Positions 1 through 20,282 of a DNA stretch of 22,904 bases are shown piece by piece. The position numbers were made by a program, and so were the translations under genes. The notes under the pieces are model-generated. The model did not search any database, was not told the origin of the DNA, and saw only the letters and a program-made list of their open reading frames with translations. Numbering within the stretch: the first letter of the stretch is position 1; each line of letters begins with the position of its first letter. The DNA is from a virus, in IMG/VR virus record IMGVR_UViG_3300034418_002430, positions 1 to 22,904 of that record. One strand, given 5' to 3'.

Positions 1-985
1 CCAATCCAAACTGCATGACCACACGCACGTTATCGCTGCCGTCGTACTGGTAAACTGGAATGTATTGCGCAACAATCAGGTCTGTCATAAGGTTAGAACC
101 AACAACCAAGTTCTCGGTCTGTGCCAACACAATAGCGTCGTCAAACATACCTGGGCACTCAGCAATTGTAATTCCAAGGAAGTTCAATTGACCGAACGCT
201 TGGTTGGTAACCTGTGCGTTGTAACCTGTTCCCACAGAGTCGCCTGAACTCAAGGCAGAACCACCTGCCGTTGCCAATGCTTGGCGGTACAATGCGGCTG
301 TCTTAGAAGATACAAAGAACTTCAGGTCGGGCTTGGCCAAAATTCCAGACTTATCGGCAGCGGCTTTTTGGTACACTTCGCCAAATGACGCAATAACGTT
401 AGTTGCGCTCAATGACGCAGCGGTAAACTCTGTGTAGGTTGCCCCTGCGCACGCTGAATTAGACAATCCGTCTTCGTCAAATGTTCCGTCGTTAGACAAG
501 AAACCTTTAGTGAAGACTGACCCGCCTTTCCAAATCAGGTTCTCAACGCTTTCGGCTGTCTTAGCTGCGGTTTGTTCCATAACGAAGGCGCGGAACTCAG
601 GCGTGCCCCAATCGCTTGTAGCGCGTGAACCACGCTGCGACACCCATGAAGGGAGCAACGTACCACGGCACAACTCCTCGTTGACTTTAAGGTCAGTCAA
701 AGTCAACACAGACTCGTTCAGGGTAACGCTATTGCCGTCTTGGAACGCGCAGTTTGCGCCCTGAATAATGTCGTCTGCAATAGACGTCGTTTGAATGACG
801 GCCTTGTTTGTAATTCCGTCCAATGTGCGGACGTAGTTCTTAGCAATTGTATCGCCCGACTTAACGGCAGGCGCGACAAATGGCAACACCAAATCACCTG
901 CATAAGTAGGTGCATTCGGCGTACCAAAATTTGGATTCGCAAACGCCCGACGACGTGTGCGGTTTAGTGACCTGTAGCGGTTCAT
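1..985 (-). CDS. Major capsid protein (HK97-like), partial, cut by left edge
   Basis: The reading frame is open from an ATG at 985 to the window edge, giving 328 residues with no stop. The product is the likely major subunit of the phage head shell. It begins with a basic stretch (MNRYRSLNRTRRR) and continues with a mixed alpha/beta sequence containing segments such as LTLTDLKVNEELC and a region around SWVSQRGSRATSDWGTPEF, which resemble capsid proteins of Bacteroidota phages. The start overlaps the stop of the upstream scaffold-like gene by ATGA (985-982). Scaffold followed directly by capsid is the usual order, and a prohead protease lies further upstream in the same transcript. The basic N-terminus could be trimmed by that protease. 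The fold is inferred from context and general sequence character, not from a search. Confidence 0.75.
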   Translation of the reverse strand, partial: MNRYRSLNRTRRRAFANPNFGTPNAPTYAGDLVLPFVAPAVKSGDTIAKNYVRTLDGITNKAVIQTTSIADDIIQGANCAFQDGNSVTLNESVLTLTDLKVNEELCRGTLLPSWVSQRGSRATSDWGTPEFRAFVMEQTAAKTAESVENLIWKGGSVFTKGFLSNDGTFDEDGLSNSACAGATYTEFTAASLSATNVIASFGEVYQKAAADKSGILAKPDLKFFVSSKTAALYRQALATAGGSALSSGDSVGTGYNAQVTNQAFGQLNFLGITIAECPGMFDDAIVLAQTENLVVGSNLMTDLIVAQYIPVYQYDGSDNVRVVMQFGL

Positions 986-1515
986 TTCATCAATTTATTT
1001 ACCATGTTAGAAACGCGCTCCTTTACGCTGTTGCCTTCGGCTTGCAGCGCACCCGTAGCGACTGGGGCGTTTTTGTGTGGGTTAGCACTCAACTTTTGTG
1101 CAGCGGGCGCAGAACCCAACTCTTCAAGTTGCTTACGCATCAACGCAATCTGACGGCGCTGACGTGCAATAGTGTTGCGTTCACGGCTCATTTCCGTACG
1201 TTCCGTGCGACCACGGCGTGCTGCCCGACGCTTGCGGAACTCCGCGCGGTCTTCGCGTGACATACGGCTGTAGCGCGAACGACGTCCGCGACCCATGCGT
1301 GACTTGCGTTGGCGTGACGCCTCCACCTCTGTAGCTTCGGCAGGTGCTTCGGCAGGTGCTGCCTCTACCAAATCCATAGCCATTTGGTGTACGGCCTCGG
1401 CTTGTTCTGCGTTGAGTCCCATTGCGGTCAACGCCTCGACCAATGCAGTTGCAGGGTCGGCGGCAGGCGCTGCTTCCGCAGGCGCTGCTTCTTCTTCAAA
1501 CTTCCTTTTGAACAT
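982..1515 (-). CDS. Putative capsid scaffold or head morphogenesis protein
   Basis: This 177-residue protein has an unusual composition. Residues 1-65 are rich in Ala, Glu and Pro (repeats of APAEA type). Residues about 66-125 are very rich in Arg (RGRRSRYSRMSREDR, RKRRAARRGR). A predicted helical/coiled segment follows (RQRRQIALMRKQLEEL). Low-complexity acidic and basic halves with a coiled coil, placed directly before the capsid gene with an ATGA overlap, suggest a scaffold. I do not recognise a named family. The Arg-rich centre could instead bind nucleic acid, or the protein could be a minor head component. The ATG at 1515 is preceded by an A-rich leader (AACAAACAA) without Shine-Dalgarno sequence. 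Confidence 0.55.
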   Translation of the reverse strand: MFKRKFEEEAAPAEAAPAADPATALVEALTAMGLNAEQAEAVHQMAMDLVEAAPAEAPAEATEVEASRQRKSRMGRGRRSRYSRMSREDRAEFRKRRAARRGRTERTEMSRERNTIARQRRQIALMRKQLEELGSAPAAQKLSANPHKNAPVATGALQAEGNSVKERVSNMVNKLMK

Positions 1516-1567: not shown

Positions 1568-1903
1568 TCAATACCCATCAAAAATTGAAGGGTCGTCTTT
1601 GACAATTACGTCGTTTAGTTTATCGGCCAATGGATGCCCCCATTCTTCAAGAATCAAACACCCGACAATGGATGCCCCGTAAATGTCCCAACGCAAGTCT
1701 TCCGCAATTGCCTTAGCGTACTTGTAGGTATCATATCCGCCGTTGTAATATGGCTCTAAAACTTTGGCTGCGACGTTGTAATTCACGTCCTCGAACAAGT
1801 CAAAAACCATGTCAATAGCCATTTGGTCGCTTGTCATTTCGTCCGCGTATTCGTTGGCTAATCCAACTTCAGCACGTGAAGCAATGTCTGTAATTTTTCT
1901 CAT
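1568..1903 (-). CDS. Acidic mini-protein I of cassette, unknown function
   Basis: The product has 111 residues, with about 22 Asp/Glu against 9 Lys/Arg by hand count (net about -13). It looks mainly helical (for example DQMAIDMVFDLFEDV and YAKAIAEDLRWDIYG), with no signal peptide and no membrane segment. I do not recognise a family. It is the last of nine small acidic genes between the protease and the scaffold gene. Its ATG at 1903 overlaps the preceding stop by ATGA, so it is probably translationally coupled. It lacks the repeated linker seen before most cassette genes. Confidence 0.8.
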   Translation of the reverse strand: MRKITDIASRAEVGLANEYADEMTSDQMAIDMVFDLFEDVNYNVAAKVLEPYYNGGYDTYKYAKAIAEDLRWDIYGASIVGCLILEEWGHPLADKLNDVIVKDDPSIFDGY

Positions 1904-2118
1904 TTCACCCTAACGTTATTGTACCCGTAAATTTCATACAATTCGCCAAGCAAGTCGTCTAGTTCATACTCGTCAAGTGGGTACGTTGTAATCTGTACGT
2001 TGTATTTGTTTGTGTACTTGTATCGGTCAACATAGGTGTCTAAACCTGCGTTGTCAATGTCGCTCTTGACGTCCGTTAGGTCGTCGTGCTCCACAATAAT
2101 AAATTCAATTCGTGCCAT
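1900..2118 (-). CDS. Acidic mini-protein H of cassette, unknown function
   Basis: The product has 72 residues beginning MARIEFIIVEHDDL, with about 16 acidic and 7 basic residues. I chose the ATG at 2118 because it follows the upstream TAA (2122-2120) by one base. The frame could be extended to 2181, but only across the end of the upstream gene. The order looks like beta-alpha-beta-alpha-beta with a Tyr-rich middle (DRYKYTNKYNVQITTY), so a small ferredoxin-like fold is possible. This is a guess from hydrophobic spacing. No family is recognised. Confidence 0.75.
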   Translation of the reverse strand: MARIEFIIVEHDDLTDVKSDIDNAGLDTYVDRYKYTNKYNVQITTYPLDEYELDDLLGELYEIYGYNNVRVK

Positions 2119-2119
2119 T

Positions 2120-2347
2120 TTATCTGCTTGCGTCCCGCACTTCGATAACGTCAAACCCTGCGCGAATAAGTGCCGCGTCAATTTCGTCTACGTCAGTCCA
2201 GTTCATGTTTTCCAAGTAAAGCCAAACGTCATTGAAATACTCTTCGGTGTAAAACGACCCACGCATTCCAATCGTGTTGTCTACTACGTCTTCAACGTCA
2301 ACCCAATTTGCGTCGGCTACTACAATGATTGCGGTGGTAATTGCCAT
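2120..2347 (-). CDS. Acidic mini-protein G of cassette, unknown function
   Basis: The product has 75 residues, with about 16 Asp/Glu and only 4 Arg and no Lys. It starts with a hydrophobic beta strand (ITTAIIVVAD), followed by acidic helices rich in Trp and Tyr. The start is fixed by the repeated linker: the upstream TAA (2361-2359) is separated from this ATG by the 11 bases ACCACAACGTT. No family is recognised. It probably acts in the cytoplasm, since no signal peptide or membrane segment is seen. Confidence 0.8.
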   Translation of the reverse strand: MAITTAIIVVADANWVDVEDVVDNTIGMRGSFYTEEYFNDVWLYLENMNWTDVDEIDAALIRAGFDVIEVRDASR

Positions 2348-2358
2348 AACGTTGTGGT

Positions 2359-2589
2359 TTAGATGTAACGTTCTCCAAAGGTTTGTTGCAACATATCAAA
2401 CAATTTGTTGGTCGCGTAGCTAGACAATGCGTCAAGTTCGTTGCTACTTGCGTCGTCCAACATTTCCTTCAATTCGTGGATGTATTCGACGTACAACAAG
2501 TCGTCGGCAAACGAAACGTCATAACCCAAGTCGTCGCCGTTTTGTGCGGCTCGCTCAATTTCTTTCTGCAGTTCCTTTAATGTGTACAT
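2359..2589 (-). CDS. Acidic mini-protein F of cassette, unknown function
   Basis: The product has 76 residues, about 17 acidic and 6 basic. It is predicted to be almost all helix (LKELQKEIERAAQNGDDLG, then HELKEMLDDASSNELDAL), resembling a short helical bundle. The linker before the ATG is a shortened variant of the cassette motif, AACCACACA (9 bases after TAA at 2601-2599). No named family is recognised. Confidence 0.8.
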   Translation of the reverse strand: MYTLKELQKEIERAAQNGDDLGYDVSFADDLLYVEYIHELKEMLDDASSNELDALSSYATNKLFDMLQQTFGERYI

Positions 2590-2598
2590 TGTGTGGTT

Positions 2599-2871
2599 TT
2601 AATAATTACTTGAGTCCCAACGTAGATACTCTTCGTCTAGCCAAGCCAAGACTTCATCAATCAAATCCTGCTCGCTGCCGTCCAAATAATCTGCCGCCTC
2701 AAATAGAAGGTCTGTCGCTTTCTCATACCCATCCCACCCGCGATTGTTCAAAATTTGGTAGGCGGTAATGACCGCAAAGTAGGCGTCACCATTAGGCAAT
2801 TCGTCTGCGATTGTTTCCAACCCATCAAATCCCTCTCGATTTAGAATATCCATTGCTTGTCTGCCGTTCAT
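2599..2871 (-). CDS. Acidic mini-protein E of cassette, unknown function
   Basis: The product has 90 residues, about 21 Asp/Glu and 5 Lys/Arg (net about -16). It is predicted to be helical throughout: AMDILNREGFDGLETIADEL, then YQILNNRGWDGYEKATDLL, then a third acidic helix pair. The two segments each contain an N-R-x-G-x-D-G pattern (LNREGFDG and LNNRGWDG), which suggests an internal two-fold repeat. The linker ACCACAACGTT precedes the ATG. No family is recognised. Confidence 0.8.
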   Translation of the reverse strand: MNGRQAMDILNREGFDGLETIADELPNGDAYFAVITAYQILNNRGWDGYEKATDLLFEAADYLDGSEQDLIDEVLAWLDEEYLRWDSSNY

Positions 2872-2882
2872 AACGTTGTGGT

Positions 2883-3167
2883 TTAGATAGGTGTGTACTC
2901 TACAATAATTTGAAAGCTATACTCTCCCATTCCTAGTTCAGTATCGAAAATATCCAGAATGTAACCCACGTTGTCGCGTATTACGTCCTTAATGTCTTCG
3001 GGGTCTGCGGGTTCAATGCCCTTGTTCTCAATGTAGCACTCTGCAAGCATTGACCTTTCGTCAAGGTAAAAGTCGAAAAAGTATGCCCCGCCACTGAAGT
3101 TGCGGTCAAGTTCCTTACACGCTGACGTTAGGTCTTGTTCTAATTCTTTGCCGTTGTAATATCCCAT
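2883..3167 (-). CDS. Acidic mini-protein D of cassette, unknown function
   Basis: The product has 94 residues, about 21 acidic and 7 basic. It begins MGYYNGKELEQDL, has an aromatic strand region (GAYFFDFYLDERSM) and ends with a hydrophobic strand (EYSFQIIVEYTPI), so it is probably alpha/beta. The ATG follows the linker ACCACAACGAT, 11 bases after the upstream TAA (3181-3179). No catalytic motif or membrane segment is visible and no family is recognised. Confidence 0.8.
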   Translation of the reverse strand: MGYYNGKELEQDLTSACKELDRNFSGGAYFFDFYLDERSMLAECYIENKGIEPADPEDIKDVIRDNVGYILDIFDTELGMGEYSFQIIVEYTPI

Positions 3168-3178
3168 ATCGTTGTGGT

Positions 3179-3448
3179 TTACAATAAGGTAAATATGAAG
3201 TCCACATATCCGTCGCCCGTTGACGCGTGAATTATATCTGCTCCCAAGTCATCCGCAAGGTCTTGCGCATAAAAAAGAACGTCCTCCTCATCGCCACGCA
3301 CAACACTTGTTCGCACCTCCACATCTACGTCGCTGTCAACAACCAAGTCGTCATATCCAAGAATTGAAGGGTGTTCTTGGTACGCGTCAAAGAAACGCTT
3401 TTGAACGGGGTTTAATGCCCCGTACTCTCTGCTACCATATCCATACAT
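3179..3448 (-). CDS. Acidic mini-protein C of cassette, unknown function
   Basis: The product has 89 residues, about 19 acidic and 5 basic. The N-terminus is rich in Gly, Tyr and aromatics (MYGYGSREYGALNPVQKRFF). An Asp-rich middle follows (DDLVVDSDVDVEV), and the C-terminus looks like helix then strand (QDLADDLGADIIHAS, then YVDFIFTLL). The ATG follows the linker ACCACAACGAT at fixed 11-base distance from the upstream TAA (3462-3460). No named family is recognised. Confidence 0.8.
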   Translation of the reverse strand: MYGYGSREYGALNPVQKRFFDAYQEHPSILGYDDLVVDSDVDVEVRTSVVRGDEEDVLFYAQDLADDLGADIIHASTGDGYVDFIFTLL

Positions 3449-3459
3449 ATCGTTGTGGT

Positions 3460-3702
3460 TTATAGAATTGTCGCTTCGTATTCACCCTGCATATCAATTG
3501 CGTCGGCAACCTCAAACAATAGGTCTTCATACTTCATCCAGTCGTCGCTGTCTGCGCTAACCTGAATTTCGATAAGGTCGCCGAAATTGTCAAAGTCGTA
3601 ATTCTTGTCGGCCTCTTGCATAGACACACCCACTTCGCTAAACGCGTCATACACGACGTCGGTCATATCAATAATGCGGCCACCTGCTACTTCTAAAATC
3701 AT
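3460..3702 (-). CDS. Acidic mini-protein B of cassette, unknown function
   Basis: This is the most acidic member relative to size: 80 residues with about 21 Asp/Glu and only 3 Lys/Arg (net about -18). It contains a beta segment (DLIEIQVSADSDDW) between helical stretches. It is separated from the preceding stop only by GAC (3705-3703) and has no cassette linker, so it is probably coupled to gene A. A DNA-mimic role is conceivable from the charge alone but is speculative. Confidence 0.8.
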   Translation of the reverse strand: MILEVAGGRIIDMTDVVYDAFSEVGVSMQEADKNYDFDNFGDLIEIQVSADSDDWMKYEDLLFEVADAIDMQGEYEATIL

Positions 3703-3705
3703 GTC

Positions 3706-3999
3706 TTAATGGTCTGTAATGTCAATGAAAATATCGTTGCCGTCCAACATAACATGAGGAACTAGATAACTAAATTCTCCAAGGTATTCCTCTAGCACAA
3801 CTGACAACTCACTCATGAAATCGTCAAGGCGTCGTGGATGATAAGCTACTGGTTCGTTATTGTGCAAGATGCCGTAATCCTCAATAACCACGGACGTGTA
3901 CCTACCACGCGAATCATAATCGACCCTTCCGTCAATGTGGTACAAGTCCATTACGTCTGACACCAACGACATAATGTATTTAATTTGGGTCGTATTCAT
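3706..3999 (-). CDS. Acidic mini-protein A of cassette, unknown function
   Basis: The product has 97 residues, about 18 acidic and 6 basic, and is the first gene of the cassette after the prohead protease. It has an N-terminal helix (IKYIMSLVSDVMDLYHI), a central strand region (RYTSVVIEDYGIL), a helix (RLDDFMSELSVVLEEYLG) and a C-terminal strand pair. The ATG follows the linker ACCACGACGAT, exactly 11 bases after the protease TAA (4013-4011). No family is recognised. Confidence 0.8.
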   Translation of the reverse strand: MNTTQIKYIMSLVSDVMDLYHIDGRVDYDSRGRYTSVVIEDYGILHNNEPVAYHPRRLDDFMSELSVVLEEYLGEFSYLVPHVMLDGNDIFIDITDH

Positions 4000-4010
4000 A
4001 TCGTCGTGGT

Positions 4011-5270
4011 TTAGCTGTATTGTTCCAGTGTTCCAATAGCAAGCAACAACTGGTCGATGTAGACTTGCATATTTCTGTCGGCGTTATCGTACGCCTCTGA
4101 CAAATAGTCGCGTGCCTTATCTAGGTCGCCGCGCTCTGACGCTTTGCTTGCGTCCATCATTGGGTCGTAAACAGACGACACCAACTCAGGGTCAACGTTC
4201 AACGCAATTTCGCTAATGGCTTCAGCCAGTCCTTCGCCGTTTTCACCCCACGCGTCAAGGTTGTCATCAATAATGTTTTGTGCTTGTCTTTGTGCGCTCA
4301 TGCTTTGTTGTTTTACTGCGCTCAATGTAGCACTTTTACGCTGTTTAGCCATACTCTTTGCGTATCTGTTTTTCAACAACGCCTTGTAGTAATTGACTTT
4401 CATAGCGTCCAACTCTACTGGTTCGGCCTCTGTTACCTCCTCTTCCTTCTCTTCAATTGCCTTTACTTCCCCGTCGTATTCTACCAATACCCCGTCGTAC
4501 ACTTCCAGTTCTACGCCCGCCTCAGTTTGGTATGTGCCGCTATCAATGCTTGTAGGTTCACCTTGTTCGTTCAATGTGTACACCTCGCACCCCGCGCTAA
4601 ACTCTTCGCTTTCTGTTACAAGCACATCGCCGTTAGTCAAAGTCGCTTCAGCGTAGAAGTTGCGGCCAGTGACTTTGTTGTATAGCGTTTGCCAAAACGT
4701 CGGCTTCTTAGGTTGCGCCTTACTTAGCTTTTCTAGCTTGTCCAAGAAATAACCTTCAATGCTTAGGCCGCGTACATCGCCCGACTTAATCTGTTGCCAT
4801 ACTTCGTCGTTGTCAACTTTCGCGCGTACCATCCATGTGCCTTCGTTCAAATCGTTAAACCCATACAAGTTGGCTTTGTCCATCTTTGGGTCTTGGACAA
4901 TCCACGACTCTACAACGCTGACACCCTCGACGGGTTCGGCGTGTTCGTATGTGTGGTTCAAATTGCGTTGCGACTTCATGTACAATTCGCTCGCCAGTTT
5001 ACACGTTTCCTTGCTGAAGTAAACGTCGTATTCTTCGTTATTGGCTTCGTCGTAACGTACAATCTTAAAGTCAGGGACAAGTGCAGGTGCAATCAATGTG
5101 CGCTGCTCTTCATCAACTTGCGCTAATTGTACTACCCGCGACTTGCCTTGTTCCTTATTAAAGGCGACCCAATTGACTTCAATTGCAGGTTCTTTGACCA
5201 ACGAAATTGCTTCGACACCAAATGCGCCTTCGGCTTCGTCAATTAACAACTCAATCAGTTTGCGGCTCAT
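4011..5270 (-). CDS. XkdF-type prohead serine protease with C-terminal helical extension
   Basis: This 419-residue protein opens with the hallmark of XkdF-like phage serine proteases (Peptidase_S78_2 type): GVEAISLVKEPAIEVNWVAF at residues 18-37. Candidate catalytic residues are His106 (NLNHTYEH) and Ser170 (GDVRGLSIEG). It would cleave scaffold and capsid during head maturation. A Gly/Glu-rich beta domain follows (about 205-265), then an acidic linker and a long helical tail (about 290-419) with a Lys/Gln/Ser-rich stretch, which makes it longer than a bare protease domain. The tail may serve as scaffold or core. I chose the ATG at 5270; a GTG at 5273 is in frame immediately before it. It lies between the tape measure gene and the acidic cassette. 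Confidence 0.75.
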   Translation of the reverse strand: MSRKLIELLIDEAEGAFGVEAISLVKEPAIEVNWVAFNKEQGKSRVVQLAQVDEEQRTLIAPALVPDFKIVRYDEANNEEYDVYFSKETCKLASELYMKSQRNLNHTYEHAEPVEGVSVVESWIVQDPKMDKANLYGFNDLNEGTWMVRAKVDNDEVWQQIKSGDVRGLSIEGYFLDKLEKLSKAQPKKPTFWQTLYNKVTGRNFYAEATLTNGDVLVTESEEFSAGCEVYTLNEQGEPTSIDSGTYQTEAGVELEVYDGVLVEYDGEVKAIEEKEEEVTEAEPVELDAMKVNYYKALLKNRYAKSMAKQRKSATLSAVKQQSMSAQRQAQNIIDDNLDAWGENGEGLAEAISEIALNVDPELVSSVYDPMMDASKASERGDLDKARDYLSEAYDNADRNMQVYIDQLLLAIGTLEQYS

Positions 5271-5290
5271 CACTATTCAATATAATCTGT

Positions 5291-16504: not shown

Positions 16505-16955
16505 CGCTTAGGGTTTGTAATGTGTGTTCGTGTAAATAATAGACTTTGAAAATTTCGCGCTCAAACCAAGGTATGTCGGCAAGCACTTTGTTAATGGCTG
16601 CCACCTTGTTCTTAATCGTCCTCGTCATTGTGTCCTCTGTTTCCTGACTATACACTAAGAATTGAACGTGGAAGTCTATTGTGTTGTCCTCTATTTCTTT
16701 GTGTTTCTTGTATTTGTAGTAGAACCTTGTCGTCTTGCTAAACGCGTTAATCTTTAGAACCCTCGCAATGTAGTACCATAGTTCGCCACGCTCACACATT
16801 TCTTCGTACTTGCCTGTCGTGTCCTCCAGTAACCAAATGCAAGTGTCATGAAAAAGGTCGTCGCCCAAAGATTCGCCTACATACATTCGGCACATATCCT
16901 GTAGCTGCTCGTACGCATCAACTAGAAATTGCTCAGTGCAGGCGGTACAACTCAC
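16386..16955 (-). CDS. Sigma-70-like region 2/4 protein
   Basis: The 189-residue protein looks like a small RNA polymerase sigma factor. A helical N-terminal part with acidic ALF-type spacing (LGDDLFHDTCIWLLED) resembles region 2. The C-terminal part, LADIPWFEREIFKVYYLHE followed by LQTLSDATGINKNTIHKAI and RRAKRKI, is a region-4 helix-turn-helix. A charged tail ends the protein. It could switch host RNA polymerase to late phage promoters. It lies between the replication module and the terminase genes, a fitting place for a late switch. The start overlaps the NinG gene by ATGA. Confidence 0.7.
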   Translation of the reverse strand: MSCTACTEQFLVDAYEQLQDMCRMYVGESLGDDLFHDTCIWLLEDTTGKYEEMCERGELWYYIARVLKINAFSKTTRFYYKYKKHKEIEDNTIDFHVQFLVYSQETEDTMTRTIKNKVAAINKVLADIPWFEREIFKVYYLHEHTLQTLSDATGINKNTIHKAIRRAKRKIQKHNEAQATNNKEEKSTE

Positions 16956-17350
16956 AACTCGTCCAATAGTTTTTTGTAGTGCTTGCGCATATCTACTATG
17001 TCCTGTAAACTATACTTCTTTGTTTCTTTGCTCATGTTGTATATGCGCTCGGCTGTGCCCTTGCCATACTTAGCGTCCAACGCTAGTCCATATTTATAGT
17101 TTTGGTTGCTATCGTACAAATTACATTTTGGGCACTGGGGCAAAACATTGACTAAACCTTCTTCGGGCACGTGCAGCCAACGCGTACTATAACATGACCG
17201 ACTCATAAAATGCCCCGCGTGCATAGACTTGACTTCGCGCTGAACGCCACACGTCACACAAGTACAAAGGCCGTACTTATCGGCGTGAAACTTTCGCACG
17301 TATTGACTGAATACGGCGTCTAGTTTTTTTACTTCGCGTGACTTACTCAC
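16952..17350 (-). CDS. ninG: NinG/Rap-like recombination nuclease
   Basis: The 132-residue protein matches the NinG (Rap) pattern. A basic N-terminus (KKLDAVFSQYVRKFHADKYG) leads to zinc-binding CTCVTCG (Cys29, 31, 34), the core SMHAGHFMSR (His44, His47), then NVLPQCPKCN (Cys73, Cys76) and a helical tail. In lambda this family promotes recombination and cleaves branched DNA. Length is shorter than lambda NinG (about 200) but typical for the compact forms in other phages. The gene is 14 bases downstream of its predecessor in the replication module. Confidence 0.85.
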   Translation of the reverse strand: MSKSREVKKLDAVFSQYVRKFHADKYGLCTCVTCGVQREVKSMHAGHFMSRSCYSTRWLHVPEEGLVNVLPQCPKCNLYDSNQNYKYGLALDAKYGKGTAERIYNMSKETKKYSLQDIVDMRKHYKKLLDEL

Positions 17351-19841: not shown

Positions 19842-20026
19842 CCGTAGTTCTGTTGAATTGATTTTTGGAACTCTGACCATAGCGCGTCAAACTTGCGCTT
19901 ATACTCTTCCATGTCGCGCACAATTTCTTGCGACGTAATGTGTGCCGTCCATGCGTTGTAGTCCTCCGCAGGCGTATCGGGGTACGCCGTGCTGCGCACC
20001 CCGTTTGGCTTCAGTTTACTTTTCAT
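19838..20026 (-). CDS. Small protein of unknown function
   Basis: The 62-residue protein is basic at the N-terminus (MKSKLKPNGVRS) and then helical (ITSQEIVRDMEEYKRKFDAL). It overlaps the preceding gene by 11 bases and the next by ATGA, which supports coding. No domain or family is recognised. Confidence 0.65.
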   Translation of the reverse strand: MKSKLKPNGVRSTAYPDTPAEDYNAWTAHITSQEIVRDMEEYKRKFDALWSEFQKSIQQNYG

Positions 20027-20282
20027 TCGTGGAAGGGTTCGTGTTCATTTCCATCTTAGTGCATAGTACCACTGCGCCTACAATGTGTTGACCCAACATA
20101 GCCGACGCGAATACGTTTGGCTTCAACCCCAATAACAACCCCTCTTCGTTGACGTAACAATCGCCGTATGGAGAAGAAACCAATTGAATGTAACCGCCTA
20201 CGGCTTCCTGCAATGTTTCCAACTTGTCGTTTGGCAGCAACGTAATGTCGGCGTTTTCGCTAATTCTGTACGTGTAACTCAT
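20016..20282 (-). CDS. DUF3846-like protein, first gene of the early operon
   Basis: The 88-residue protein contains GGYIQLVSSPYGDCYVNEEG followed by LLLGLKPNVFASAMLGQHIV and GAVVL. This resembles DUF3846, a small domain found in phages and mobile elements with unknown biochemical role. The first gene after the promoter is often made early, so it may act in host takeover. The ATG at 20282 follows an A-rich leader (AACAAACAAAACACT). Confidence 0.7.
   Translation of the reverse strand: MSYTYRISENADITLLPNDKLETLQEAVGGYIQLVSSPYGDCYVNEEGLLLGLKPNVFASAMLGQHIVGAVVLCTKMEMNTNPSTNEK

Follow-up and report, generated by a model that had tools for sequence, protein, structure and literature searches.

A linker-joined array of small acidic genes in a phage head operon, variable between relatives and possibly serving anti-defence

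Nine acidic mini-genes and a shared linker

The window analyzed here, the whole 22,904 bases of IMG/VR virus record IMGVR_UViG_3300034418_002430 (classed as linear), carries nine consecutive open reading frames (ORFs) of 72 to 111 amino acids (aa) on its minus strand at positions 1568 to 3999, between a Peptidase_S78_2 prohead protease gene and the genes for scaffold and capsid proteins. We refer to them as mini-genes A to I, with A nearest the scaffold gene. An earlier note on this DNA had placed them there and had described them as very acidic, as belonging to no known family, and as an insertion into the head module, all of which was borne out. Their net charges range from -9 to -18 (A, -13; B, -9; C, -12; D, -11; E, -16; F, -14; G, -14; H, -18; I, -12) and their pI values from 4.05 to 4.39; searches of Pfam and PHROG gave no significant match for any of them; and in array-less relatives the protease gene is directly followed by the scaffold and major capsid genes, so that the block is an addition to the head operon. 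A net charge of -9 is reached by 2 (3.4%) of 59 annotated coding sequences of 45 to 120 aa in three Bacteroidota phages and by 0 of 12 other small genes in the window; nine such genes in a row are therefore not a matter of chance.

The key feature of the block, absent from the earlier note, is a linker shared by five of its junctions. This linker, TAAACCACAACG[A/T]TATG (17 bp), has the stop codon of the preceding gene at one end and the ATG of the next gene at the other, and it stands at five gene starts in the window, with a single mismatch in one copy. The five matches compare with 0.22 expected, and 0 of 100 shuffles reached five. The mismatched copy (TAAACCACGACGATATG, 3997-4013) joins the protease stop to the start of gene I; exact copies join H to G (TAAACCACAACGATATG, 3446-3462), G to F (TAAACCACAACGATATG, 3165-3181), F to E (TAAACCACAACGTTATG, 2869-2885), and D to C (TAAACCACAACGTTATG, 2345-2361), all on the minus strand. 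On the same strand, what reads as a decayed linker (TTAAAACCACACAATG, 2587-2602) precedes gene D, and genes A, B, and H are without one.

Relatives were retrieved from IMG/VR with the linker pattern, a protease alignment, and a capsid alignment; they are metagenomic contigs and are given L numbers here. A sister lineage has the same architecture on a different linker, TAAACAACAGAGATATG. Among 39 arrays from the two lineages, none mixes the two linkers, each being lineage specific, and the good linker copies form a single block directly before or after the protease gene. When the genes behind the two linkers (41 and 171 different genes) were aligned at their ATG, conservation was confined to about -14 to +2. 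The Shine-Dalgarno core AGGAG does not occur in the linkers (AACCACAACGAT and AACAACAGAGAT), a pattern search found no Bacteroidota-type promoter, sigma-70-like sites were at chance level, and Rfam gave no match. A 16-base pattern, WAACCACAACGATATG, gave many single matches that their context marks as chance (most of L053-L067), and it was set aside.

Three contigs without an array carry one exact copy each of the window's linker (L034:2635-2651, L035:3276-3292, and L040:1574-1590), followed in all three by the same gene of ~190 aa, which by eye looks like a head maturation protease. In a third lineage (L163, L166, L172, L173, L175, L177, L180, and L155), acidic mini-genes lie around the protease gene with no uniform linker, and some of these contigs have families in common with lineages 1 and 2.

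Named-phage relatives of the protease and terminase point to Bacteroidota as the host, and the array-bearing tailed phages probably infect these bacteria. Among deposited phages there was no DNA match to the left 12 kb and no tblastn match to ArdA (see below) or to two of the mini-genes. A terminase search of genome contigs gave one match, a distant one.

Gene content and turnover among relatives

The interval between the protease and scaffold genes varies in gene content among relatives. Close relatives do not carry the same nine genes in a fixed order, which the earlier note had listed among the findings that would argue against an accessory cassette; with proteases identical at 98.7% or more, two phages often have no more than one or two of about seven cassettes in common. 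The arrays contain 226 linker-headed ORFs, among them a few copies of the protease gene or of some other longer gene; the median is 78 aa with a net charge of -12, and none is above -3. The mean net charge of 205 mini-genes is -11.8, compared with +0.7 for ordinary small phage genes. Single-linkage clustering (E<1e-4) gave 109 variable families in 38 non-redundant arrays, 44 of them singletons, with a Chao1 estimate of ~148, counts that would shift with the clustering and with the ORF caller, which was a simple one. Nearly all of the variable families are without a Pfam match, and scans of the mini-genes against Pfam, PHROG, and NCBIfam produced almost no matches.

Gene order turns over as well. 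Few of the 95 array pairs that share at least two families keep any adjacent pair, and identical genes are found between different neighbors, with the identity usually ending within the linkers. Since a swap of whole genes must break between genes in any case, it is the intactness of the units, their constant spacing, and the sharing of one linker by unrelated genes that are informative. The families are under purifying selection (dN/dS of ~0.16 over 80 pairs from 34 families). Particular orders nevertheless recur across metagenomes: runs of five to eight linker-headed genes are common to L226/L249, L236/L284, L241/L274, L241/L285, L255/L278, L264/L283, and L259/L263, and the window's five linker-headed genes stand in the same order in L002 and L003.

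Eight of the nine window mini-genes have relatives in other arrays. The exception is gene A (1568-1903, 111 aa), which takes the array end occupied by ArdA in relatives. Gene I (3706-3999, 97 aa) belongs to a family also present in L069, L047, L168, L227, and L266; its predicted fold is abb-abb, and its best structure matches are designed proteins only. Gene G (3179-3448, 89 aa) has a 98.9% identical counterpart with different neighbors in L070 and a relative in L174. Relatives were also found for F (2883-3167, 94 aa; L069 and L174), E (2599-2871, 90 aa; L069), D (2359-2589, 76 aa; L050), C (2120-2347, 75 aa; L167, L168, and L241), and B (1900-2118, 72 aa; L237 and L241), and gene H (3460-3702, 80 aa) is considered below. 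In the contigs examined, IMG/VR relatives of gene I and of family 5 lie within this phage group.

One family behaves differently. Family 2 (29 contigs, including L167:8411 and L162:8408) is an acidic gene of ~85 aa (MWDRIYDIWIG...) with a fixed place just downstream of the protease/ArdA genes, and, unlike the shuffled mini-genes, it is perhaps a true head protein. Further, an early-region gene of the window (20016-20282) matches DUF3846 (E=4.7e-12), and a gene of this type is a linker cassette in lineage 2 (e.g., L174:85-339). Its presence in both places suggests that the array and the early-region accessory genes exchange members.

ArdA, protease fusions, and the phage head

At the scaffold end of many arrays lies a very acidic gene of ~240 aa that encodes ArdA (PF07275), a known antirestriction protein that mimics DNA, identified above the curated Pfam cut-off; the matches in L051, L033, L162, L050, and L069 all exceed 27 bits. 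Of 11 array-bearing records, 7 encode ArdA, and of 8 array-less relatives none does (Fisher 0.0065), a contrast that comes from incomplete records and is uncorrected for phylogeny. The L258 array has a free-standing C-terminal part of ArdA (131 aa). The array ArdA proteins (L162:7686-8405 and others; 238 to 250 aa) are longer than the Pfam model, and their C-terminal part is matched twice, as if the dimer/antirestriction domain had been duplicated. On their own, ArdA domains of 88 and 114 aa can act against restriction, and they differ in the enzymes that they prefer (PMC12548430).

A second association is with the prohead protease itself (4011-5273, minus strand; XkdF-type, Pfam E=3e-15). The last ~85 aa of the window's protease are homologous to a free-standing mini-gene of the sister lineage (BLASTP, 5e-12 to L174:2699-2974 and 1e-11 to L168:7595-7870), and the proteases of L070 and L052 have another mini-domain in that place. 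In L155, protease and ArdA form one ORF; L177 has, by reading, an apparent fusion of the same kind, whose ArdA part is without a Pfam match. A protein fused to the prohead protease would be expected to end up inside the prohead. In view of these fusions, the alternative raised in the earlier note, that the mini-genes encode packaged head proteins, may hold as well, alongside an anti-defence role. Genes made late could protect incoming DNA only if their products were delivered with it, and anti-restriction proteins packaged in the head are known from T4 (the internal proteins; PMC12373910) and P1 (DarA/Hdf; PMC12810830). In addition, polyvalent proteins, which include ArdA domains, are predicted to be packaged and injected (PMC5512222).

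Downstream of the array, the scaffold-like gene (982-1515, minus strand; 177 aa, net +11, arginine rich) precedes the capsid gene and belongs to a family common to array-bearing relatives. The major capsid-type gene (2-985, minus strand), cut by the window end, matches phrog_11320 (4.5e-12) and phrog_1623, a virion structural protein (6e-6). Scaffold net charge ranges from -7 to +21 in array-bearing phages and from -29 to -40 in array-less relatives. This switch was considered as proof of packaging and was dropped because it is confounded by domain rearrangement. The array-less scaffolds (L179, L182, and L183) are acidic and have a domain (MYAEMILDDGRVLATEDEQ...) that in the window sits inside the protease (NFYAEATLTNGDVLVTESEE...), indicating that protease and scaffold domains have been rearranged.

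Possible functions and comparison with known systems

We read the block as a hypervariable array of single-gene cassettes for small anti-defence proteins, probably DNA mimics, that are made with the head and possibly packaged and injected, and we give this reading an even chance. Each cassette is one small acidic ORF, its stop joined to the next start by a constant linker of ~15 to 17 bp. Whole cassettes would be gained, lost, and reordered when phages recombine, with the crossovers probably falling inside the linkers. The array, its linkers and turnover, the purifying selection, the association with ArdA, and the protease fusions are observations; the crossover role of the linker, anti-defence activity, DNA mimicry by individual mini-proteins, packaging, and injection are inferred from them. 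More than 100 families make up the encoded pool, most likely a collection of small proteins against host defences. Many would be DNA mimics, broadly understood, and each would act on a different nuclease or DNA-binding defence of the host, alongside ArdA. At least some mini-proteins are probably incorporated into the prohead and travel with the DNA, given that they are encoded with the protease, scaffold, and capsid and that ArdA and mini-proteins occur fused to the prohead protease. A more specific version is tentative and, taken as a whole, rather unlikely: lineage-specific 17-bp linkers would allow phages to exchange modules from the pool, and the products, loaded into the capsid beside ArdA and the protease, would enter the host as a combination of nuclease inhibitors whose make-up changes more quickly than the remainder of the head operon. 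The accessory anti-defence cassette proposed in the earlier note found partial support in the variable gene content behind nearly identical proteases and in the ArdA genes at the end of many arrays; among the window's own genes, the weak sequence link of H to ArdA is not backed by its predicted fold.

Several observations weigh against this reading, in addition to the limits of the ArdA contrast given above. Pfam found no ArdA in the window record and matched none of the nine mini-genes to it. The weak similarity to ArdA is limited to gene H and a relative of G, which score slightly above 33,700 shuffled sequences against an ArdA hidden Markov model (HMM); with an HMM built from the ArdAs of these phages, H reaches 18.5 bits. 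Gene H is predicted to adopt a ferredoxin-like fold (pLDDT 92), and no ArdA is among the PDB or BFVD matches listed for that fold. Because the fold disagrees, the idea that H is an ArdA domain survives only as a weak lead. A 99.9% ArdA profile match of H's cluster was due to one true ArdA fragment, that of L258; H alone gave 13%. Acidic charge by itself is no proof of DNA mimicry. Beyond the ATG, the two sets of aligned genes show neither a shared signal peptide nor a shared sequence for targeting to the capsid. Integrase, resolvase, and ERF recombinase were not found in the array-bearing records; for the tyrosine integrase PF00589 there was no match in 11 of these, several of which are incomplete. 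The window encodes a NinG/Rap junction endonuclease (16952-17350; phrog_5034, 6e-22), which is present in 7 of 8 array records and also in some array-less relatives and so is not specific; as a dedicated shuffling enzyme it was dropped for that reason.

Our confidences in the alternatives do not sum to one, because those for the linker and those for the proteins answer different questions. Instead of a recombination joint, the linker may be a start-associated regulatory or translation signal kept by a lineage-specific factor, with illegitimate recombination moving the cassettes and those with the right signal being retained; we put this at a little under even. Its exact stop-to-ATG placement and lineage-specific consensus, like those of the start-associated sequences (SAS) of Cluster K mycobacteriophages (PMC3203893), fit such a signal, as does the failure to find a dedicated recombinase. 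The linker's lack of a Shine-Dalgarno core fits it poorly, as do the cassettes without a linker, such as A, B, and H in the window, and the constant spacing with no gene remnants at the joints favors exchange through the linker. A translational or regulatory role, of the sort proposed for the SAS, seems about as likely as a role in recombination, and the two are compatible.

Regarding the proteins, they might be internal or head-core structural components without an anti-defence role. As acidic filler or as a co-scaffold, they would pair with the arginine-rich scaffold protein and adjust how the prohead assembles or how the DNA is packed, and their sequences would be free to vary. The late head operon location, the mini-domains fused to the protease, and the scaffold charge contrast would suit this idea. 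We consider it improbable: a structural core would not be expected to differ almost entirely where the proteases are nearly identical, purifying selection within each family means that the sequences are not free, and ArdA is left unexplained. Further, the difference in scaffold charge is confounded: as read from the sequence, the array-less scaffolds have an acidic domain that resembles part of the window's protease. We are equally doubtful that the mini-proteins are late host-takeover or regulatory proteins acting on RNA polymerase, nucleoid proteins, or the factors of other phages, in which case host range and not restriction systems would drive their variation. DNA mimicry by small acidic proteins can be directed at any DNA-binding protein, and DUF3846 relatives occur both as an early gene of the window and as a lineage 2 cassette; yet takeover genes are usually early, this block sits in the head operon, and the ArdA association speaks for anti-defence. 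Finally, although every array sequence comes from a metagenomic contig and the linker is itself a repeat of 17 to 18 bp, it is very improbable that the variable orders are assembly artefacts of that repeat, as the same orders recur in contigs of different metagenomes and homologues differ by point changes with a purifying pattern.

If the anti-defence reading is correct, the linker would provide one scannable DNA signature leading to more than 100 unstudied families of small acidic proteins, and these would be prime candidates for proteins that inhibit restriction, BREX, CRISPR, and further nuclease-based defences. The array would also show that a phage anti-defence set can be renewed gene by gene without an integrase, and the loading of anti-defence proteins into capsids via the prohead protease would become testable. 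Even with another function, a hypervariable array in an otherwise conserved head operon calls for an explanation.

The array resembles several known systems in part. Like DNA-mimic proteins of the ArdA and Ocr types, the window mini-genes are small and strongly acidic; true ArdA is present in many arrays, and the mini-genes match the small ArdAs (sArdN and sArdC; PF07275; PMC12548430) in size and acidity. However, nearly all mini-genes, including eight of the nine in the window, have no significant ArdA homology, and H has another predicted fold. The T4 proteins Ip1, Ip2, and Ip3 (PMC12373910) are likewise small head proteins that vary between relatives, each blocking one defence subtype, and co-delivery with DNA is what we propose here; no homology to them was found, no shared N-terminal capsid-targeting stretch is visible, and the present arrays have 5 to 11 genes on a repeated linker. 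P1 DarA/Hdf (PMC12810830) are anti-defence proteins made with the head, as proposed for the array. In contrast to DarA and the polyvalent proteins (PMC5512222), the proteins here are encoded mostly by separate small arrayed genes rather than as one large polypeptide, and only some relatives have ArdA fused to the prohead protease. Integron cassettes and anti-CRISPR or anti-defence islands share with the array the single-gene modules on a common junction and the clustering of anti-defence genes; it differs from them in that neither an integrase nor an attC-like element was found, in the short linker of only ~15 to 17 bp, and in its site, a phage head operon. The Cluster K SAS (PMC3203893) are short repeats that immediately precede the start codons of numerous unrelated small genes and in many cases overlap the stop codon before them. 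The SAS contain a Shine-Dalgarno core and occur in the half of the genome that holds the non-structural genes, and the array linker has neither property, being found only in the head operon, in lineage-specific form, and with rapid gene turnover. Such arrays were not found described in the open-access literature (most subscription journals being outside this coverage). ArdA, injected anti-restriction proteins, anti-defence clustering, and start-associated repeats are all of known kinds; it is their combination that is new, and the array could count as a new kind of system if packaging and linker exchange are proven.

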